Shown piece after piece: positions 1 to 7,950 of a stretch of DNA of 8,150 bases (positions are counted from its first letter, which is position 1; every line of letters begins with the position of its first letter). The notes beneath the pieces are model-generated. The model had not been told where the DNA came from. It saw nothing but the letters and a program-made list of their open reading frames with translations, and searched no databases. The position numbers and the translations under genes are program-made. Source of the DNA: a bacterium (GTDB lineage: Bacteria; UBP15; UBA6099; DSWB01); the NCBI GenBank assembly GCA_020061125.1, contig JAGUYV010000355.1, positions 1 to 8,150 of the forward strand. The letters run 5' to 3'.

Positions 1-1
1 A

Positions 2-1495
2 TCGCGCGCCATCGCGGCGCGGGCGCTGCGGCGCTGCCGTCATGCGGGCGTGCGCGACAAGGGATCCGCGGACCTGCTGCGCGGCATGGGAGTTCCAGAG
101 GCGATTGTACAGCAGACCGGAGATCTGGTGCTGCTGCGGGACAGAGGAGCCTCGGCTCCCGCGCGAAACAAGCCCGAAGGCGCGCGACTGGCCGTGGGGC
201 TGTCCCTTCGCCCCAGTCCCGATGTGGACCGGCTGTTCAATGTGCTGCTGGGCTGCCTGCTGCGGCTGAATGAACAGCGGCCCATCGAGTTGAGCCTGTT
301 CGCCATGAGCCGCGACGAGGATCTGCCGCTTCTGGATGATTTCGCCGCGCGAATTAAAGAACGGTGCTCCAACATGCCCGTGCGCATGATCGGCGGCCGG
401 GACGACACGGGACTTACTGTCGAGGATATGGAGAGCGCGGTTGCGGATCTGGACATCATGATCGGCATGCGCCTGCACTCGCTGGTGTTCGCCGCGGGCG
501 GCCGCGTGCCATTCGTGGGCTTGAGCTACGACCCCAAGGTGGCTGCATTCGCGGCCCGCTGCGGCCAGCCCGTGGTGGAAAGCCTGTCCCGCGCCGAACC
601 CCTCGAGATCATGCGCCGCATCGAGCAGGCGCTTGAAGGCGCGGATAAGAAGTCTGAAGCCATGGGACAGGCGCTCAAGGAATCGAGGGACGCTCTGCTC
701 GAGGATCTGGACCGGTTCTGTGTGCAGTTGTCCGAGGCCGGGCAGGGGCCATTGCCCATTCTCGGAGTGCCCGTTTCGCGGCTCTCGTTCAACCAGACCG
801 TGAGATACATCCTGTACGCCGCGGAGCGCGGGCGAAAGCTGCATGTTGTGACAGTAAATCCGGAAATGATATTGCGCGCGCGGCGGGATGCGGAATTCCG
901 GCGCCTGCTTTGCGCTTCCGGGCTGAACACCGCCGACGGAGTGGGGGCGCGCCTGGCGTATTTGCTCAAGTACGGAAAAAAGATTGAGCCAGTGGCCGGG
1001 GTCGAGATCCTGGACCGCATTCTTGCTGCGAGCGCGGAAAACAGCGCGCCCGTTTTCCTAATCGGGTCCAGGCCCGAAGTGATTCAGAAAGCGGTGGAGA
1101 GGGCCATGCGCCGCTCACCCAGGCCACTCATTGCGGGATCGCATCACGGGTACATCAGAGACACCGACCCCGAACAAATCACGCAGATGATAAACGACTC
1201 CGGCGCAAGCATTGTGTTTGCTGGCATGGGATCGCCCATGCAGGAGCATTGGATACGCGACAACATGGATGCCGTCAGCGCCAGTGTGTTCATCGGCGTG
1301 GGCGGCAGTTTCGATGTGCTGGCAGGAACCACGCGCCGCGCCCCGGCGTTTTTTCAGAAAACGGGCACCGAATGGCTGTATCGCGTGGTCACGGATCCAT
1401 CCCGTCTGGGCCGCATTGCCGGGTTCCCGTTTTTTGTGTTTCTGGTGGTATGGGAAGCCTTGCTGTACCGGCTTGGTCTGCGCCGCGATGTGTGA
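2..1495 (+). CDS. Polysaccharide pyruvyl transferase (CsaB-like, N-terminus missing) fused to WecG/TagA/CpsF-family glycosyltransferase
   Basis: The frame is open from base 2 and stops at TGA 1493-1495, so the gene continues upstream of the window; the GTG at 50 is internal. About 240 residues (to roughly base 740) match the C-terminal half of CsaB-type pyruvyl transferases: a VRDKGSADLL-GMGV segment near bases 50-97, then IGMRLHSLVFAA with the family's conserved His at 476-478, followed by VPFVGLSYDPKV. From about base 755 a complete TagA-type domain begins: ILGVPVSRLSF, VTVNPEM (Thr at 851), LNTADG with the likely catalytic Asp at 935-937, VAGVEILDRIL, FAGMGSPMQEHWI, GVGGSFDVLAG and TGTEWLYRVVTDPSR. 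CsaB enzymes add pyruvate ketals to ManNAc of secondary cell-wall polymers; TagA enzymes transfer ManNAc to a lipid-linked sugar. One chain could therefore perform consecutive steps, which is inference. The extreme C-terminus is hydrophobic and may contact the membrane. Family assignments are strong; the exact sugar substrate is not knowable here. Confidence 0.9.
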   Translation, partial: SRAIAARALRRCRHAGVRDKGSADLLRGMGVPEAIVQQTGDLVLLRDRGASAPARNKPEGARLAVGLSLRPSPDVDRLFNVLLGCLLRLNEQRPIELSLFAMSRDEDLPLLDDFAARIKERCSNMPVRMIGGRDDTGLTVEDMESAVADLDIMIGMRLHSLVFAAGGRVPFVGLSYDPKVAAFAARCGQPVVESLSRAEPLEIMRRIEQALEGADKKSEAMGQALKESRDALLEDLDRFCVQLSEAGQGPLPILGVPVSRLSFNQTVRYILYAAERGRKLHVVTVNPEMILRARRDAEFRRLLCASGLNTADGVGARLAYLLKYGKKIEPVAGVEILDRILAASAENSAPVFLIGSRPEVIQKAVERAMRRSPRPLIAGSHHGYIRDTDPEQITQMINDSGASIVFAGMGSPMQEHWIRDNMDAVSASVFIGVGGSFDVLAGTTRRAPAFFQKTGTEWLYRVVTDPSRLGRIAGFPFFVFLVVWEALLYRLGLRRDV

Positions 1496-1749: not shown

Positions 1750-1860
1750 ATGATGCGTTTTATGACCAGAGCCAGACGCGCGACAATCCGGGTAATTCTT
1801 GTGTGCTTGTTCGCATGCGGTTTTTTTATTTTGTACCCCAATAAGCCCGTTCTGGCCGCA
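1750..1860 (+). other. Signal peptide of the giant protein
   Basis: Residues 1-14 are basic (Arg at 3, 7, 9, 10 and 14), residues 15-29 are hydrophobic, and VLA-AD follows. Cleavage is likely after Ala36 or Ala37. No lipobox Cys is placed for lipoprotein processing; Cys19 and Cys23 lie inside the hydrophobic core. This indicates Sec-dependent export. Confidence 0.85.
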
Positions 1861-4800
1861 GACAAAAAAATCAGCTCGAATCAGGGCGCGGGCCAGCCCC
1901 TGGCCCTTCCTCCGGTTCCTGACCACCGATCCGAGATCACGCTGCGAGCCACGGACGCCGGAACAGGCACCATCACCCGCGACATCAAAGGTCAGGGACA
2001 GGCCGAAGAAGACATTACGGCGGATACCATCACCCTCAACTGCGGCGGCAACATAGTCCGTACCACGCACGCGCAGATAACACCGGAAGCCGATCCCGAC
2101 ACGGGAATCATCAGTTTCGGCTACACTTCATTTAATTTCAACCAGGCCGACATCGCAGCCATCGTGCCGGCTATCAGTTCCAGCGCGATCTGGTGCACGC
2201 TCAATCTGCCACAGCCCTCGATCACCTGGACCTTCCCCAACGGGTTCCGGCTCGATGAAGTCATTCCCGATGTCATCACCCAGAGCAATCTCATAACATA
2301 TCCCATCGTTCCACTTTCCGGAGGCCGCGCGCGGGTTTCCTGGCTGTTCGGGGATCCCCAGACCCCGCCGGACCCGGACGGGGATGTGAGTTCCTGTTCC
2401 GACCACACCTGCAACCTGACCGACCAGCGGTTCCAGTACCAGTTCTACAGCAGGAAAAAGACCGAGGCCTACACGATTTCCATCACCGGCTCGGCCGGTC
2501 CCACAGAAACATCCTTCAGTGACGACGACGCTCTTTCAACCACCGACCGTTTCGGAAAGAGCGCGGATGCGGATCAATACTGTTACACCATGCGCGTGCA
2601 GGATACGGCCGGAAATTTCAGCGGCCGGGCCACGGGCATGGATGAAAAATGCTTTGTGCCCGACGGCAAAGCGCCCGTGTTCCAAAGCGTGCATTTCTAC
2701 AGGGACGCTGCCTTCACGCAGGCGTTTCCCAAGGATGTCGTAGGCAAGTACACGGTGACCTCCAACCCGTGCTATTTCGATCCCGCAACATGCGTGCGCG
2801 GCGTGGGAAATCCGCGCTACATCTATCTCAAGCTCATTTTCAGCGAACCGCTGTTCGGCCAGTTTGCGGGCGGTTACACGACAATGGCGGATGACGGCGT
2901 GGACAATGACACCGACGGGTTGAGCGACGAAGAGACCGGCGGTTTCAACGGCCTCGACGACGATGCCGACGGGTTTATTGACGAGGATGTGTCCATGACC
3001 GGCTGCGTGGTCTCGCCCGTGGTCGCCAACGACGCCGTTGACAACGACTGCGACGGGCATGTGGACGAAGAAGCCGCCAACGGGCTGGACGACGACGGCG
3101 ACGGGCAGATAGACGAAGATACCTGGACCGGCAAAGGCTGCGCGGCCAAGGAACTCTGGAACCACGCCCAGCAGGCGTGTGTGAAATCGCCGCGCCTCTC
3201 CATTTCCGGCCCGGATGTGGAAGGACAGGTGCCTTACGGCGCGGGCAACAACGGCAGCGATACTATTCTGTGGGAATGCACGGCCTGGTCCGGCAACACA
3301 AACGCCCTGTGCGACGGGTTCGCCACCGGAACCACCATCTACAGTTACCGCTGGGAAGTGTCCGGCGAATCCGTGTCTCCCGTGGGCCTGGCCGAAGGCG
3401 ATTACACAATTACTCTTTCGCAGGGTATTGACGGCGTCGGCAATGAGTTGTCCAGTTCCTCGCCGCAGCAGGGCGGCATGGTGCGCGTGGACAACGAGCC
3501 GCCCGAGGTTTCCCTCGGTTACTACAAAAATGTGACTCTCACAACGGGGTACGCCGCTTACGATCACGACAACAACGCCCTGACTCCCAGCATGCCCGTG
3601 GTGCCCGAAGCCAAGCTGTACATGAAAGTCACGCTGAACGAGTATTCCGGCGCCACGCCCACCATCTCGATTTACACCCCCAACGACACTACGCCCACTT
3701 ACACGGGCGTGCCACAGAACGCCAATCTTGTTGTGGTGCCCACATACACCACATGCGGACAGCCCACGAACTGCGATCCCTGCACAGGCAACAATTGCGT
3801 GCAATTCGACCCGGACACCAGTTCGCCGTGCATGGTCTTTATGGCATGCTATGAGGTGGCGAGCACCACGGTGTACAACGGCTACGCCGCCGTCTCCGTG
3901 TGGGCGCGGGACCGTCTCAACAACATGTCCTGGGATCCCACGAACGCGCACGCCCAGGCCAGCCAGTACGACGCAAACGGACTGTCCGACGACCTTAACG
4001 GCGACGGATATCCCACTTATACTCCCGCAAGCCAGGAGCCGGACGCACAGTTGTCCCTCGGCCAGTATTTCGCCATTGACATGATCCCGCCCGGCACTCC
4101 GTCCATGGGTCTGCCCATCACGCCCTGCGACGGTACCATCGCGCGCCAGGGCGTGACATGTTCCACCGCGGCAAACACTACGAACAGCCCCATCCTCACT
4201 TGGAAGCGCCTGTCAAACGGTCTCGATGACGACAACGACGGCAGCACGGATGAAGAAACATACGACTTCATTGACAATGACAGCGACGGCATGATTGACG
4301 AAGACGCCGTGGCCCCGTCAACCGGAACCATGTCCTGGGAAATCAGCACCTGGCGACTGCAGGTTTCCTCGGACATGAATTTCGCCACGCCCACGGAGTA
4401 TTTTTACGACAACAGCAATGTGACCGCGGCCAATGTCATGCTCACGGCCATTCCCGACAGGCCCGCGAGCGCACCGTATTACTGGCGCGTGGCCGCCTTC
4501 GACCTTGCCGGCAATCAAGGCCCCTGGTCGCCCCCGGATCCCAAGTCGTATTACACATTCGGCGTGGACACCACCAAGCCGCAGATCACGGTTACATATT
4601 TCAGCGACTCCGCGCGAACCACACAACTTGTAACAAACAAAAACGGCATTCCCGTAACCACGGACACTGCGTCCGCTGGGAAAAAAGTTTATGTGACCCT
4701 CACAAGCGATGAACCCGTGGCGGCCGCGCCCACATTCAAAGTCAGGCAAAATGCCGTGTTCGCCGTGCCACTCACCTCAACCGTCGCCAATCCCGCTAAT

Positions 4801-7800
4801 CCCATTTATTCATTTTTGGGCGAATTTGAGGTGGACGCCATCGGCGGCGGCGCGACATTCGTGAACGGGCTTGCCGATTTTCTCGTCACAGTGGCTGACC
4901 CGTACGGAAATGCGCACAGCGACGCGCTGCCCGCGACAGGGTCGAGGTTTTTCGTGGACACCGAAGTGCCGGTCATTAGCATCATTACAGGAGAGCCAAG
5001 CCCGGCGTCCGTGGACAACGACGGCGACGGAATTCCCGGCGAACTCGGCCCGGTCACAGGCGACCCGGCCACAAGCGGCGACGCCGTGACCATTACCGTA
5101 AGAGTCACCGAAGACCTGCGCGAACCGTTCCGCGTAAAAGTCAAGCAATTGAACTTCCCGCAGATTGCGACAATTGACGACGGCATAGACAATGATTGCG
5201 ACGGCCTCATTGACGAAGAATTACAGGACGGCGCGGACAACGATGCGGATGGCCTCATTGATGAGGACATCGGCAATTCGGGCATTCCCCAGCCCGGAAG
5301 CGGGTGTCTCATCACCATGACCCGCGATGCCTCCACCGAGGGACTGTACACTGGCTATTACAATGTTTTCGAAGGCTACGACGGCGCGGCCAGCATCATA
5401 GTGGGCGCTGCCTCGGCTTCAGACCCGGCATACGCCGCGGACTTCGCAGGAAACGCAGTGACCGGCACGGGCACCTTCACCGTTGACACCGTGCCGCCCG
5501 GCCGCCCCAATCTGGTCATGCCATCCCACGACCAGCGCATTGGCGTGAACACGCCAACCCTGGGATGGCAGGTCGCCAGCCGCGCTCCCGACCTCAAAAA
5601 GTATCACCTGCAGGTGGCCACAACAACCGGTTTTGTCGCGCCGCTGGTCGTGGATATCTATCAAAACGACGACGGCCAGTCCACATCATTCTTCTATACA
5701 ATCCCCACTGAATCACCACTGGCCGACGGCAAATATTACTGGCGCGTGTACGCCATTGACAACGCCAACAACACCAGCCAGCCCAGTTCCGTGTTCTCGT
5801 TCACCGTGGACACGCTGCCGCCGAACCCGCCCAAATTCGACTCCGTGCAGAACCCAACCGTACTCACCACATCTCCGCTGTCCGGCACAACAGAGGCCAA
5901 CGCTTCCGTGGACATTTATGTGAACGGCCTCAAGAAGGGAACCGTGACCGCGGGCGCCGACGGAAAATTCACCGTGGGCATTGACGACGACAAAGACGGG
6001 ACAAAGGACGAGGATCCCGTTGATGGCGTTGACAACGATCTGGACGGTCTCAAGGACGAGGATCCCCCGGGCGTGTTTCTGGCCGAAGGCGACAACAAAA
6101 TCGAAGGGCGCGTCACGGATGTGGCCGGCAATATCGGGACCAAAGGCTGCGACCCCACAACATCGTTCTACGACGCCGCGCAACAGGCGTGCATCATCGT
6201 CCGCGACTCCGGTGCTCCCGTGTTCCAGGTGGTGTATTATTCGGACACCGACCTCACCACGCCTCTGCCGTTCAACCAGACCGCGAACCGGTATGTCGCC
6301 AAAGAGGGAACGATCTATCTGAAAATCGTCGCCAGCGAGGATCTTCCGTCCGCGCCCACTTATTCCATCAACCAGCAGGGAGTCACCGACGACCTGAATA
6401 AAACCGCAACCTCCATCGCCGGCTCGACGCGCAATTTCAAAGGCACATATACGGTGAAAAAAGCCAACGGCGGCGGGTATCTGGACGGCGACGCGCTTGT
6501 GACCGCGGTGGGAACCGACGACCAGGGCAACACCACGCCCGACGGAACTCTCCCAACATCCGGCGCTTACTTCTTGATTGATACTTCGCCGTCCACATTC
6601 AAAATCACTTACTATCAGGATTCCGTGCTGCAGGAAGAACTGACCAGGGACGAAAATCTCAAGCCCAACGCCAAAGCGGGCAATGTTTACATGCTGATTA
6701 TCGCCAACGAGCCGCAATCGTCCGCCCCGCAAATCACAGTGGATCAGGCCGGTTCCAGCGACACGGTTAACGCCGCGTCCACGGCCAGGCAGATCAACGG
6801 CGCGACATCAACCCTGCAATTCACATACACCTATGAAGTGAATGAAGCGGACGGTTCGAACTATCAGGACGGCACGGCCAATGTGTCCGTGGCGGGCACC
6901 GACCTGGCCGGCAACAACAGCCTGGGCATCGTGCCCACGCAAGGCCCCCTGTTCATCATTGACACTACGGCCCCCGACCCGCCGGTCATCAACCTTTCGG
7001 CCACCACCACCATCTACACGCAGATGCAGATGACTGGCACGGCCGAGGCGTATTCCAAAGTGGAAATCTATGTGCGCGGCAACAAGCTCATGACCGCGGA
7101 CGACGGCATTGACAACGACGGAGACGGGCTTACCGACGAGGAACCCGCCAACGGCCGCGACGACGACAACGATATGTTCGCGGACGAGGACACCACGGCC
7201 AACACCTGCACCACCGGCAATTACTGGGATTCCATCGGCGGCGTGTGCATACCTTCACCCTCGCAGGAAAGACGGCCGGACGGAAGGGCAACCACGGATC
7301 CGGACGGAATCTTCTCCTCCATGGTGGGCGGCATCAACATCGGCAAGAATCTTGTCTACGGCCGCGCCACGGACTATGCGGGAAACATCAGCGATTTATC
7401 GTCTCCCCTGGATTTGCTGAATGAAGCGCCGCTGAATGTGGAGTTGTCCCACACTTTTGACGCCGGATGGCACATGGTGGGCATTCCCATGCAGCCGGTG
7501 GTGGGAAGCCCCAACACAGGCATGCATGTCAGCGATCCCATTTACCGGTTGCAGGACGGGGCGTACAAGACCGGTTCGCGGCTCGACCCCATGAAGCCCG
7601 GCTTGTGTTACTGGGTGTATTTCGGCGAGGAAACCACGGTCACGCTCACGGGCATCACCTCAACCACACGCACCGTGAATCTGGAAGAAGGCTGGAACAT
7701 GGTCTCCGTGCCGCACGAGCGCGAAACAGAATGGAACGATGACATCTTCGTGACCTTTGAAGGCGATTCCTACGATCTCGGCACCGCACAGGCCGAGGAA

Positions 7801-7950
7801 ATCGTGGATTCTACAATCTATTTCTACACCAGCGCCACGGGCGTGTATTCCGGCGGCACGGATGTGGACGACGCTTATATGATCCAGCCATGGACCGGAT
7901 TCGTTATCAAAGCGCACAAGGACTGCACCATCACTTTCCCCTATGAATGA
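1750..7950 (+). CDS. Giant secreted multidomain protein with Ig/FN3-like repeats, inserted DxDxDGxxDE metal-binding cassettes and C-terminal GW module
   Basis: This 2066-residue protein starts MMRFM, so ATG 1750, 1753 and 1762 are all possible starts; none has a clear Shine-Dalgarno sequence. Residues 1-37 are a signal peptide. Residues 38-307 are unrecognised beta-rich sequence with several Cys. Then come beta-sandwich domains: A1 308-583, A2 584-779, B1 (FN3-like) 780-942, A3 943-1072, A4 1073-1248, B2 (FN3-like) 1249-1356, C1 (bacterial Ig-like) 1357-1487, A5 1488-1612, A6 1613-1740, C2 1741-1892. Residues 1898-2066 are a tandem GW module. Most domains end in a VDTxPP-like linker. Twelve acidic loops of the MopE/thrombospondin-type-3 kind interrupt A1, B1, A4, C1 and C2. 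No enzyme motif, SLH domain, LPXTG signal or C-terminal membrane helix was seen. A structural or adhesive surface role, rigidified by Ca2+, is inference; another divalent metal is possible because the MopE motif family is described as putatively copper-binding. Confidence 0.9.
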   Translation: MMRFMTRARRATIRVILVCLFACGFFILYPNKPVLAADKKISSNQGAGQPLALPPVPDHRSEITLRATDAGTGTITRDIKGQGQAEEDITADTITLNCGGNIVRTTHAQITPEADPDTGIISFGYTSFNFNQADIAAIVPAISSSAIWCTLNLPQPSITWTFPNGFRLDEVIPDVITQSNLITYPIVPLSGGRARVSWLFGDPQTPPDPDGDVSSCSDHTCNLTDQRFQYQFYSRKKTEAYTISITGSAGPTETSFSDDDALSTTDRFGKSADADQYCYTMRVQDTAGNFSGRATGMDEKCFVPDGKAPVFQSVHFYRDAAFTQAFPKDVVGKYTVTSNPCYFDPATCVRGVGNPRYIYLKLIFSEPLFGQFAGGYTTMADDGVDNDTDGLSDEETGGFNGLDDDADGFIDEDVSMTGCVVSPVVANDAVDNDCDGHVDEEAANGLDDDGDGQIDEDTWTGKGCAAKELWNHAQQACVKSPRLSISGPDVEGQVPYGAGNNGSDTILWECTAWSGNTNALCDGFATGTTIYSYRWEVSGESVSPVGLAEGDYTITLSQGIDGVGNELSSSSPQQGGMVRVDNEPPEVSLGYYKNVTLTTGYAAYDHDNNALTPSMPVVPEAKLYMKVTLNEYSGATPTISIYTPNDTTPTYTGVPQNANLVVVPTYTTCGQPTNCDPCTGNNCVQFDPDTSSPCMVFMACYEVASTTVYNGYAAVSVWARDRLNNMSWDPTNAHAQASQYDANGLSDDLNGDGYPTYTPASQEPDAQLSLGQYFAIDMIPPGTPSMGLPITPCDGTIARQGVTCSTAANTTNSPILTWKRLSNGLDDDNDGSTDEETYDFIDNDSDGMIDEDAVAPSTGTMSWEISTWRLQVSSDMNFATPTEYFYDNSNVTAANVMLTAIPDRPASAPYYWRVAAFDLAGNQGPWSPPDPKSYYTFGVDTTKPQITVTYFSDSARTTQLVTNKNGIPVTTDTASAGKKVYVTLTSDEPVAAAPTFKVRQNAVFAVPLTSTVANPANPIYSFLGEFEVDAIGGGATFVNGLADFLVTVADPYGNAHSDALPATGSRFFVDTEVPVISIITGEPSPASVDNDGDGIPGELGPVTGDPATSGDAVTITVRVTEDLREPFRVKVKQLNFPQIATIDDGIDNDCDGLIDEELQDGADNDADGLIDEDIGNSGIPQPGSGCLITMTRDASTEGLYTGYYNVFEGYDGAASIIVGAASASDPAYAADFAGNAVTGTGTFTVDTVPPGRPNLVMPSHDQRIGVNTPTLGWQVASRAPDLKKYHLQVATTTGFVAPLVVDIYQNDDGQSTSFFYTIPTESPLADGKYYWRVYAIDNANNTSQPSSVFSFTVDTLPPNPPKFDSVQNPTVLTTSPLSGTTEANASVDIYVNGLKKGTVTAGADGKFTVGIDDDKDGTKDEDPVDGVDNDLDGLKDEDPPGVFLAEGDNKIEGRVTDVAGNIGTKGCDPTTSFYDAAQQACIIVRDSGAPVFQVVYYSDTDLTTPLPFNQTANRYVAKEGTIYLKIVASEDLPSAPTYSINQQGVTDDLNKTATSIAGSTRNFKGTYTVKKANGGGYLDGDALVTAVGTDDQGNTTPDGTLPTSGAYFLIDTSPSTFKITYYQDSVLQEELTRDENLKPNAKAGNVYMLIIANEPQSSAPQITVDQAGSSDTVNAASTARQINGATSTLQFTYTYEVNEADGSNYQDGTANVSVAGTDLAGNNSLGIVPTQGPLFIIDTTAPDPPVINLSATTTIYTQMQMTGTAEAYSKVEIYVRGNKLMTADDGIDNDGDGLTDEEPANGRDDDNDMFADEDTTANTCTTGNYWDSIGGVCIPSPSQERRPDGRATTDPDGIFSSMVGGINIGKNLVYGRATDYAGNISDLSSPLDLLNEAPLNVELSHTFDAGWHMVGIPMQPVVGSPNTGMHVSDPIYRLQDGAYKTGSRLDPMKPGLCYWVYFGEETTVTLTGITSTTRTVNLEEGWNMVSVPHERETEWNDDIFVTFEGDSYDLGTAQAEEIVDSTIYFYTSATGVYSGGTDVDDAYMIQPWTGFVIKAHKDCTITFPYE
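1861..2670 (+). other. Unrecognised N-terminal region of the giant protein (residues 38-307)
   Basis: I do not recognise this region. It is beta-rich in appearance, with Cys in TLNCGG, IWCTLN, SSCSDHTC, YCYTM and EKCF contexts, suggesting disulfides outside the cytoplasm. A DPDGD stretch near residues 208-212 resembles a weak acidic loop. The last third, with YTMRVQDTAGNFSG, looks like the end of an FN3-like domain. Confidence 0.5.
2890..3120 (+). repeat. Acidic metal-binding cluster 1 (four DxDxDGxxDE loops)
   Basis: Loops start at D385 (DNDTDGLSDEE), D403 (DDDADGFIDED), D431 (DNDCDGHVDEE) and D447 (DDDGDGQIDED). They form two pairs with spacings of 18 and 16 residues; the pairs are 28 residues apart. 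Asp at loop positions 1, 3, 5 and 9 with Gly at 6 fits Ca2+-loop chemistry as in TSP3/dockerin loops. The third loop has the DNDCDG form typical of the MopE putative metal-binding motif, and C419 lies upstream of it. Confidence 0.85.
3139..3180 (+). repeat. Two-cysteine loop, copy 1
   Basis: C464 and C477 are separated by 12 residues with an aromatic near the middle: CAAKELWNHAQQAC. It directly follows acidic cluster 1 and resembles copies 2 and 3; the AQQAC ending is shared with copy 2. A local disulfide is likely. Confidence 0.6.
3754..3849 (+). other. Six-cysteine insert in A2 (residues 669-700)
   Basis: Cys at 669, 675, 678, 683, 694 and 700 fall within 32 residues, including a CDPC (CxxC) at 675-678. 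The other A domains have no equivalent Cys here. Three disulfides or a metal site are possible; the sequence does not decide. Confidence 0.6.
3991..4008 (+). other. Single dockerin-like acidic loop (DLNGDG)
   Basis: Residues 748-753 read DLNGDG, preceded by GLSD and followed by YPTY. It has Asp/Asn/Asp at loop positions 1, 3 and 5 and Gly at 6 but lacks the DE at positions 9-10, so it is a divergent single loop, not a cassette pair. Confidence 0.45.
4087..4575 (+). repeat. B-type (FN3-like) domain 1, interrupted by an acidic pair
   Basis: SPILTWKR, then an insert, then TWRLQVSSDMNFATP, and later YYWRVAAFDLAGNQGPWS. This matches B2 (TPTLGWQ, KKYHLQVATTTGF, YYWRVYAIDNANNTSQPS). The insert sits between the first W-containing strand and the LQV strand, where B2 has only a short turn. 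Confidence 0.7.
4216..4305 (+). repeat. Acidic metal-binding cluster 2 (one pair)
   Basis: Loops at D826 (DDDNDGSTDEE) and D842 (DNDSDGMIDED) are exactly 16 residues apart. The pair lies inside FN3-like domain B1. Confidence 0.85.
4576..4965 (+). repeat. A-type domain 3, uninterrupted
   Basis: Residues 943-1072 run from KPQITVTYFSDSARTTQL to the FFVDTEVP linker with no acidic pair, making this a reference copy of about 130 residues. VYVTLTSDEPVAAAPTFKV marks the strand pair that is interrupted in A1. Confidence 0.7.
5014..5031 (+). other. Divergent single acidic loop (DNDGDG)
   Basis: Residues 1089-1094 read DNDGDG followed by IPGELG rather than xxDE. The first half fits the acidic loop consensus, but Gly replaces Asp at position 9. 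It may be a decayed loop or a TSP3-like variant. Confidence 0.5.
5176..5268 (+). repeat. Acidic metal-binding cluster 3 (one pair)
   Basis: Loops at D1147 (DNDCDGLIDEE) and D1163 (DNDADGLIDED) are 16 residues apart. The first has the canonical DNDCDG of the MopE motif; its Cys1150 could pair with Cys1186 just after the cluster. The pair follows the FRVKVKQLNF strand of A4. Confidence 0.85.
5494..5817 (+). repeat. B-type (FN3-like) domain 2, uninterrupted
   Basis: Residues 1249-1356 include TPTLGWQVA, KYHLQVATTTGF and YYWRVYAIDNANNTS, then SFTVDTLPP. At about 108 residues it is the compact reference for B1 and shows where B1 carries extra sequence. Confidence 0.7.
5977..6063 (+). repeat. Acidic metal-binding cluster 4 (one pair)
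   Basis: Loops at D1412 (DDDKDGTKDED) and D1428 (DNDLDGLKDED) are 16 residues apart. Both end DED, unlike the other five pairs, where the first ends DEE. Confidence 0.85.
6148..6192 (+). repeat. Two-cysteine loop, copy 2
   Basis: C1467 and C1481 are separated by 13 residues (CDPTTSFYDAAQQAC). It lies after the last strand of C1, about 29 residues past the acidic pair, and shares the KGC opening and AQQAC ending with copy 1. Confidence 0.6.
6211..6585 (+). repeat. A-type domain 5, uninterrupted
   Basis: Residues 1488-1612: GAPVFQVVYYSDTDLTTPL, IYLKIVASEDLPSAPTYSI, GTYTVKKANGGGYLDGDA, then FLIDTSP. It aligns by eye to A6 over its whole length. Confidence 0.75.
6586..6969 (+). repeat. A-type domain 6, uninterrupted
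   Basis: Residues 1613-1740: STFKITYYQDSVLQEELTR, VYMLIIANEPQSSAPQITV, YTYEVNEADGSNYQDGTA, VSVAGTDLAGN, then FIIDTTAP. With A3 and A5 it defines the intact A fold. Confidence 0.75.
7099..7191 (+). repeat. Acidic metal-binding cluster 5 (one pair)
   Basis: Loops at D1788 (DNDGDGLTDEE) and D1804 (DDDNDMFADED) are 16 residues apart. In the second, Met replaces the usual Gly at position 6, the only such change among the twelve loops. Confidence 0.85.
7207..7248 (+). repeat. Two-cysteine loop, copy 3
   Basis: C1820 and C1833 are separated by 12 residues (CTTGNYWDSIGGVC) and lie just after acidic cluster 5, as copy 1 does after cluster 1. Confidence 0.6.
7441..7947 (+). other. C-terminal tandem GW module of the giant protein
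   Basis: Residues 1898-2066 contain two related halves, each starting with a Gly-Trp strand: AGWHMVGIPMQPV at about 1905 and EGWNMVSVPHERE at about 1980. GLCYWVYF in the first half parallels PWTGFVIKAH in the second. Such GW-M-V-x-[IV]P modules recur at the C-termini of large secreted bacterial proteins. A surface-anchoring or secretion role is a guess; there is no hydrophobic C-terminal tail. Confidence 0.6.

Follow-up and report, generated by a model that had tools for sequence, protein, structure and literature searches.

A 16-residue pair of acidic loops, probably a calcium-binding insert, recurs in bacterial surface proteins

Introduction

Calcium-binding loops of the form Dx[DN]xDG recur in many folds and, according to the passages of Rigden et al (2011; PMC3123361) that treat them, can be inserted between β-strands; a DxDxDG loop put between β-strands of rat CD2 created a Ca2+ site. 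Binuclear sites are described there for a few proteins, thrombospondin among them; the passages contain neither a twin of loops spaced 16 residues apart nor a rule linking the residue three before a loop (position −3) to loop residue 2 (position +2). TSP3 repeats and the C-rich domain of Teneurin-4 (PDB 1UX6 and 7PLP) share the letters D-x-x-D-[N/D]-D-x-D-G-x-x-D with the loops considered here. The latter differ in that most lack cysteines, in their arrangement as a 16-residue twin, and in being inserted in foreign domains. In Teneurin-4, the reported Ca2+ ligands include D840, the K842 carbonyl, D843, N844, D845, D847, the L849 carbonyl, and D851, as well as E835 and the A837 carbonyl, and two of the three ions match those of TSP3 repeats (PMC9058538).

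The Pfam model PF11617 (Cu-binding_MopE) shares the single-loop core DGxDNDCDGxxDE but describes a lone loop, in which position 4 is often Cys, and no pair. The copper site of MopE itself is formed by two His and a kynurenine, and the protein is stabilised by calcium (PMC3423442). The NCBIfam model NF033662, an acidic double-disulfide repeat, weakly matched the loop core in two pair-bearing proteins from outside the order studied here, but it is named for disulfides, which the pair does not have. The core loop is therefore already known from TSP3, the MopE motif, and the Dx[DN]xDG loops; what appears to be new is the twin spacing and an Asp/Asn rule, for neither of which a description was found in the open literature (subscription papers lay outside the search).

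Results and Discussion

Six loop pairs in one surface protein

The window, i.e., the whole stretch of 8,150 nucleotides that was analysed, comes from an uncultured bacterium of a candidate phylum (UBP15 type) and contains a single complete long gene within which all six loop pairs fall. A Pfam scan of its 2066-aa product recognised Ig_Rha78A_N and Big_6-like Ig repeats. The gene and its loops are as follows.

1750..7950, forward strand: open reading frame of 2066 aa, predicted exported multi-Ig-domain surface protein (hydrophobic N-terminal signal segment)
2893..2988, forward strand: pair 1, residues 382-413, DGVDNDTDGLSDEE...NGLDDDADGFIDED, spacing 18 (profile match, E=5.8e-9)
3031..3120, forward strand: pair 2, residues 428-457, spacing 16 (loop scan and profile match; second loop degenerate in orthologues)
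4216..4305, forward strand: pair 3, residues 823-852, spacing 16, within the first part of an Ig_Rha78A/Fn3-like domain
5014..5049, forward strand: unpaired single loop DNDGDGIPGELG, residues 1089-1100 (seen in the translation)
5179..5268, forward strand: pair 4, residues 1144-1173, spacing 16 (loop scan and profile match)
5974..6063, forward strand: pair 5, residues 1409-1438, DED/DED type, spacing 16 (loop scan and orthologue alignment)
7102..7191, forward strand: pair 6, residues 1785-1814, spacing 16, second loop DDDNDMFADED (loop scan and orthologue alignment)

An earlier note on this DNA had counted twelve DxDxDGxxDE loops. Twelve are indeed present, but a direct scan found strict loops at 11 places only (starting at residues 385, 403, 431, 447, 826, 842, 1147, 1163, 1412, 1428, and 1788), the twelfth, at residue 1804, being degenerate with Met in place of Gly. 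The grouping into six pairs with spacings of 18, 16, 16, 16, 16, and 16 residues was reproduced, as were the endings of the first loops (DEE in five pairs, DED in pair 5) and of the second loops (DED in 6/6). The unpaired loop, which begins DNDGDGIPGE at residue 1089, was absent from that account. When the residues of the protein were shuffled 5000 times, 0.0008 strict loops arose on average and one at most, compared with the 11 observed; likewise, when 12 loops were placed uniformly in 20,000 trials, the same spacing value occurred at most three times, compared with five times here.

The comparison with the PF11617 and TSP3 profiles that had been suggested was carried out. PF11617 was the sole Pfam model touching a loop, and it stayed below its cut-off of 27 bits (16.3 bits for the whole protein and 23.9 bits at the best place). 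TSP3 models did not match the window protein in Pfam and NCBIfam scans (E≤1), NF033662 did not match it in the NCBIfam scan, and no Pfam or NCBIfam model spanned a pair in the proteins scanned. A copper-binding motif of the MopE type, after the name of the nearest Pfam model, is highly improbable in view of these scores and of the His- and kynurenine-based copper site in a protein stabilised by calcium. The loops also lack the marks of an EF-hand: at position 12, P, I, or W predominates among 60 pairs from outside the order (the external pairs, see below), no EF-hand profile scored above its cut-off, and helices are absent from the low-confidence structural models.

Pairs keep their places in orthologues

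Five genomes of the same order contain relatives with 38-45% identity; the records that bear names are of uncultured bacteria (ADurb.Bin236, UBP15_UBA6099, and two more metagenome-assembled genomes). Alignment and loop table agree that the pairs occupy the same places and that the order DEE-then-DED is largely retained; pair 5 is DED/DED in every orthologue that covers this region, and a related single loop occurs at the position of the unpaired loop of the window. The pairs are also worn in places: the second loop of pair 2 is lost in orthologues, the relative L032 misses exactly 18 residues (one unit) of pair 6, and L035 has the first loop of pair 4 but not the second. The spacing of pair 6 is 18 in those orthologues that retain it.

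A fixed spacing and two non-equivalent loops

A single-loop DNA pattern, blind to spacing, was run on 386 genomes and was present in 158. Outside the order, 150 places from 50 genomes were listed; of the 40 close neighbours among them, 25 were exactly 48 bp apart, and strict loops occurred as 101 singles, 23 doubles, and one triple. A loose partner stood at −16 in 30 of 148 loops and at +16 in 26 of 142, compared with 0-5 at any other offset. In a second search, which allowed tandem loops to be spaced by 12-21 residues, the spacing was exactly 16 in 60 of 67 cases outside the order, from 34 genomes and 21 families. By these counts, the fixed 16-residue pair is a real and widespread module. A spacing of 16 and a second loop ending in DED also characterise the window, where five of the six pairs are spaced by 16 and one by 18, and all second loops end in DED.

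Because positions 1, 3, 5, 9, and 10 were set by the search pattern, they are uninformative; position 11, however, was left free. In loop 2 it was D in all 30 pairs scored (versus 35/99 single loops); in loop 1 it was E in 15 of them (versus 7/99 single loops). Ile or Val occupied position 8 more often in loop 2 (56/60) than in loop 1 (43/60). As loop 2 always ends in DED and is richer in Ile or Val at position 8, the two loops of a pair are, by composition, non-equivalent. Among the external pairs, the residue at loop 1 position 11 goes with the type of linker: E with Asn at position 14 (28/34) and D with Asp (23/26). An Ignavibacteriae variant (L090) has a stretched second loop, DNDKDWNPLSDDVGSDG.

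The earlier note had taken the two-loop unit, and not the single loop, as the module. Fixed spacing and non-equivalent loops speak for the unit; the single loop, however, is still viable, as singles outnumber pairs and the orthologues L032 and L035 have lost one loop or unit, so that pairing appears favoured but not obligatory. The DEE/DED signature holds in so far as the order is retained in orthologues, but it marks a subtype, because loop 1 ends in DEE or DED about equally often and DED/DED accounts for ∼43-50% of pairs. Random spacing and an order not kept in homologues had been named as what would speak against the module; the spacing proved far from random, and orthologues retain the order.

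The same counts bear on a simpler reading, namely that the loops are self-sufficient Ca2+ sites in tandem and that their 16-residue spacing is only the trace left when a 48-bp unit was duplicated by slippage or unequal crossing-over, without a two-loop structural unit. The excess of singles, the loss of exactly one unit in orthologues, and occasional runs of three or more loops at a spacing of 16-17 (L108, L111, and L089) are in its favour, and so is codon usage: identical amino acids share the same codon in 77% of cases inside pairs (permutation P = 0.002). Nevertheless, strict-loop runs mostly end at two (23 doubles versus one triple), the non-equivalent loops stand in fixed order, and the spacing is retained in 21 families despite diverged linker sequences, which renders this reading rather unlikely, although it is the strongest of the competitors. 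Over all copies, the same-codon rate is 60%, about what the codon usage of the reading frame predicts, in line with the previously claimed divergence at synonymous sites; recent DNA duplication as the origin of the copies was set aside because they differ at such sites.

Asp and Asn switch jointly at positions −3 and +2

At positions −3 and +2, one residue is Asp and the other Asn. In loop 2 of the 60 external pairs, the −3/+2 combinations were Asn/Asp in 29, Asp/Asn in 27, Asp/Asp in two, and Asn/Asn in none, with Pro at −3 in the remaining two (P = 3e-14). When the count was repeated on another phylum (14 genomes), it gave 31 Asn/Asp, 74 Asp/Asn, two Asp/Asp, and no Asn/Asn, so that 105 of 107 loops obeyed the rule (P = 7e-25); phylum-wide searches mostly yielded few genomes. 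Both P values are indicative only, because related loops were counted as independent. In the window protein, every scorable loop kept the rule. Six of the orthologous loops (residues 403, 826, 842, 1163, 1428, and 1804) show both positions switched jointly, without an intermediate being seen. The rule alone does not account for pairing, as single loops follow it as well (Asn/Asn 0, Asn/Asp 6, Asp/Asn 46, Asp/Asp 6); their exceptions are mostly of the MopE type with a Cys as residue 4. As a signature at the level of sequence, this reciprocity, which the earlier note did not contain, is stronger than the DEE/DED order.

The reciprocity might instead reflect descent from two ancestral cassettes, NGxDD and DGxDN, exchanged as blocks by gene conversion and without physical coupling. 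In favour of such descent are the distance of only five residues between the two positions, the fact that several bases next to the switched ones also differ between L032 and L033, and the way in which loop 1 position 11 goes with the type. Yet the residue in between varies freely, a single A/G transition suffices to change either residue, both types are present within one gene, and across phyla Asn/Asn was never seen and Asp/Asp rarely. As, in addition, both positions are Ca2+ ligands in 7PLP, we regard two-cassette descent as improbable, more so than independent loops in tandem.

Proposed calcium ligation

A profile search found no 16-spaced pair in solved structures, nor did phmmer return a match in the PDB for a synthetic two-loop query. 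The profile search did, however, weakly match (E 0.06-0.07) a single loop with the same letters in the C-rich domain of Teneurin-4 (7PLP). Linking the two rests on the loop letters and on the ligand list, which is not split by ion. On this basis, the ligands from D840 to D851 map to loop positions −3, −1, 1, 2, 3, 5, 7, and 9, and E835 and A837 to −8 and −6, which in a 16-spaced pair are residues 9 and 11 of loop 1. As D840 (−3) and N844 (+2) are both on the list, both swapping positions would be Ca2+ ligands. At positions −3, 1, 2, 3, 5, and 9, 11 of the 12 window loops match by letter, Asp/Asn swaps aside; the first loop of pair 5 has Val at −3.

We consider it probable that each pair is a Ca2+-binding insert of ∼30 residues, made of two TSP3-like loops and sitting in surface loops of extracellular domains, which in the window are several Ig-like repeats. 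The first Ca2+ of each loop would be held by D1, D3, D5, and D9 plus the residue 7 carbonyl, and a second one probably by the side chains at −3 and +2 together with the carbonyl of residue −1, so that the pairs of the window would bind about four Ca2+ each. If this second site requires one carboxylate and one carboxamide, −3 and +2 would have to swap Asp and Asn jointly; one Asp with one Asn would be a natural rule of charge for such a site. The 16-residue repeat would place residues 9, 11, and 14 of loop 1 at −8, −6, and −3 of loop 2; a contribution of ligands to loop 2 from the tail of loop 1 may thus be what fixes the spacing. The assignment of ligands to ions, the sharing of ligands between loops, and any stiffening of the protein are parts of the proposal that we infer. 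After export, Ca2+ would rigidify otherwise disordered acidic inserts and stiffen a long surface protein.

AlphaFold2 models of the pair-5 and pair-3 domains, each with four orthologues, were poor, with a mean pLDDT of 49 and 45 and the inserts below 50. Such low confidence, together with the high Asp content, would also suit disordered acidic spacers without a specific metal site; however, spacers would not be expected to show an exact spacing, conserved positions in the loops, or joint switches, and this reading has hardly any credit with us, no more than the copper-binding one.

The wider claim is more tentative than the calcium-binding insert itself and seems to us somewhat short of an even chance: that a widespread, unnamed bacterial insert exists, a twin Ca2+ loop with non-equivalent halves, the first of which lends ligands to the second, which has entered unrelated extracellular folds and whose second site follows a physical rule of one Asp and one Asn. 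If true, calcium sites could be predicted by this rule from sequence. The 16-residue spacing and the reciprocal Asp/Asn at −3 and +2 could be converted into a profile. With it, a large class of so far unassigned acidic inserts would be annotated in the surface proteins of numerous bacterial families, barrels of secretion systems and receptors among them. Swapping the two residues would be a direct test of the design logic of a two-ion calcium loop.

Host proteins and insertion sites

With the loops masked, the pair-bearing proteins, including that of the window, fell into ten groups without BLAST similarity to each other. Recognisable hosts are PorV/PorQ barrels, SprA of the type IX system, a TonB-dependent receptor, a lamin-tail protein, a CglD-like protein, and Ig proteins. 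In the window, two Ig-like domains are interrupted.

5806..6159, forward strand: Big_6 Ig-like domain, residues 1353-1470, interrupted by pair 5 (Big_6 profile)
6958..7407, forward strand: second Big_6-like domain, residues 1737-1886, interrupted by pair 6 at a different loop (Big_6 profile)

The pair-5 domain scores above the Big_6 cut-off even when intact (30.3 bits versus 27.6 required), the match ending at profile position 60; when the insert is removed, it scores 33.6 bits and reaches position 74. For the pair-6 domain, the match extends from profile position 13 to 46 only when intact (18.6 bits) and from 13 to 75 when the insert is removed (21.2 bits). Removal raises the scores modestly, and the extended coverage is the more telling indication. 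Because excision restores a continuous Big_6 match at two different places of the profile, the pair is, judged by profile coverage, an insert in surface loops and not part of the Ig fold.

In the TonB-dependent receptor, three loop pairs follow the plug (L163 and L165), probably within a barrel loop on the extracellular side. In SprA-like type IX secretion translocon proteins (L111 and L112), two or three loops follow one another at a spacing of 16.

Neighbourhood of the window gene

The gene upstream (1-1495, forward strand), the 5′ part of which is missing at the contig start, encodes a fusion of a CsaB-like polysaccharide pyruvyl transferase and a WecG/TagA glycosyltransferase according to Pfam/NCBIfam scans, and is a cell-envelope polysaccharide enzyme. 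The product of the window gene ends in a further module.

7429..7941, forward strand: C-terminal module, residues 1894-2064, common to many other proteins of these genomes

This module of ∼170 residues has two GWN-type repeats and closes many large proteins of the order, with further copies in G000:C305, C27, and C83; it may serve for sorting or anchoring. The orthologous gene in L032 (1198-4456, reverse strand) is followed by genes for a DUF6055-like protein and a dockerin-bearing protein; the neighbours in L033 and L034 are similar, judged by their start sequences. Two further proteins of the genome of the window carry related loops: one of 2803 aa (L041; G000:C124:4213-4305) has a DEE-16-DED pair next to fn3 and Ig domains, and one of 2073 aa (L040, 5472-11690; G000:C83) has 12 looser DxDxDGxxD loops that are not of the DE type.
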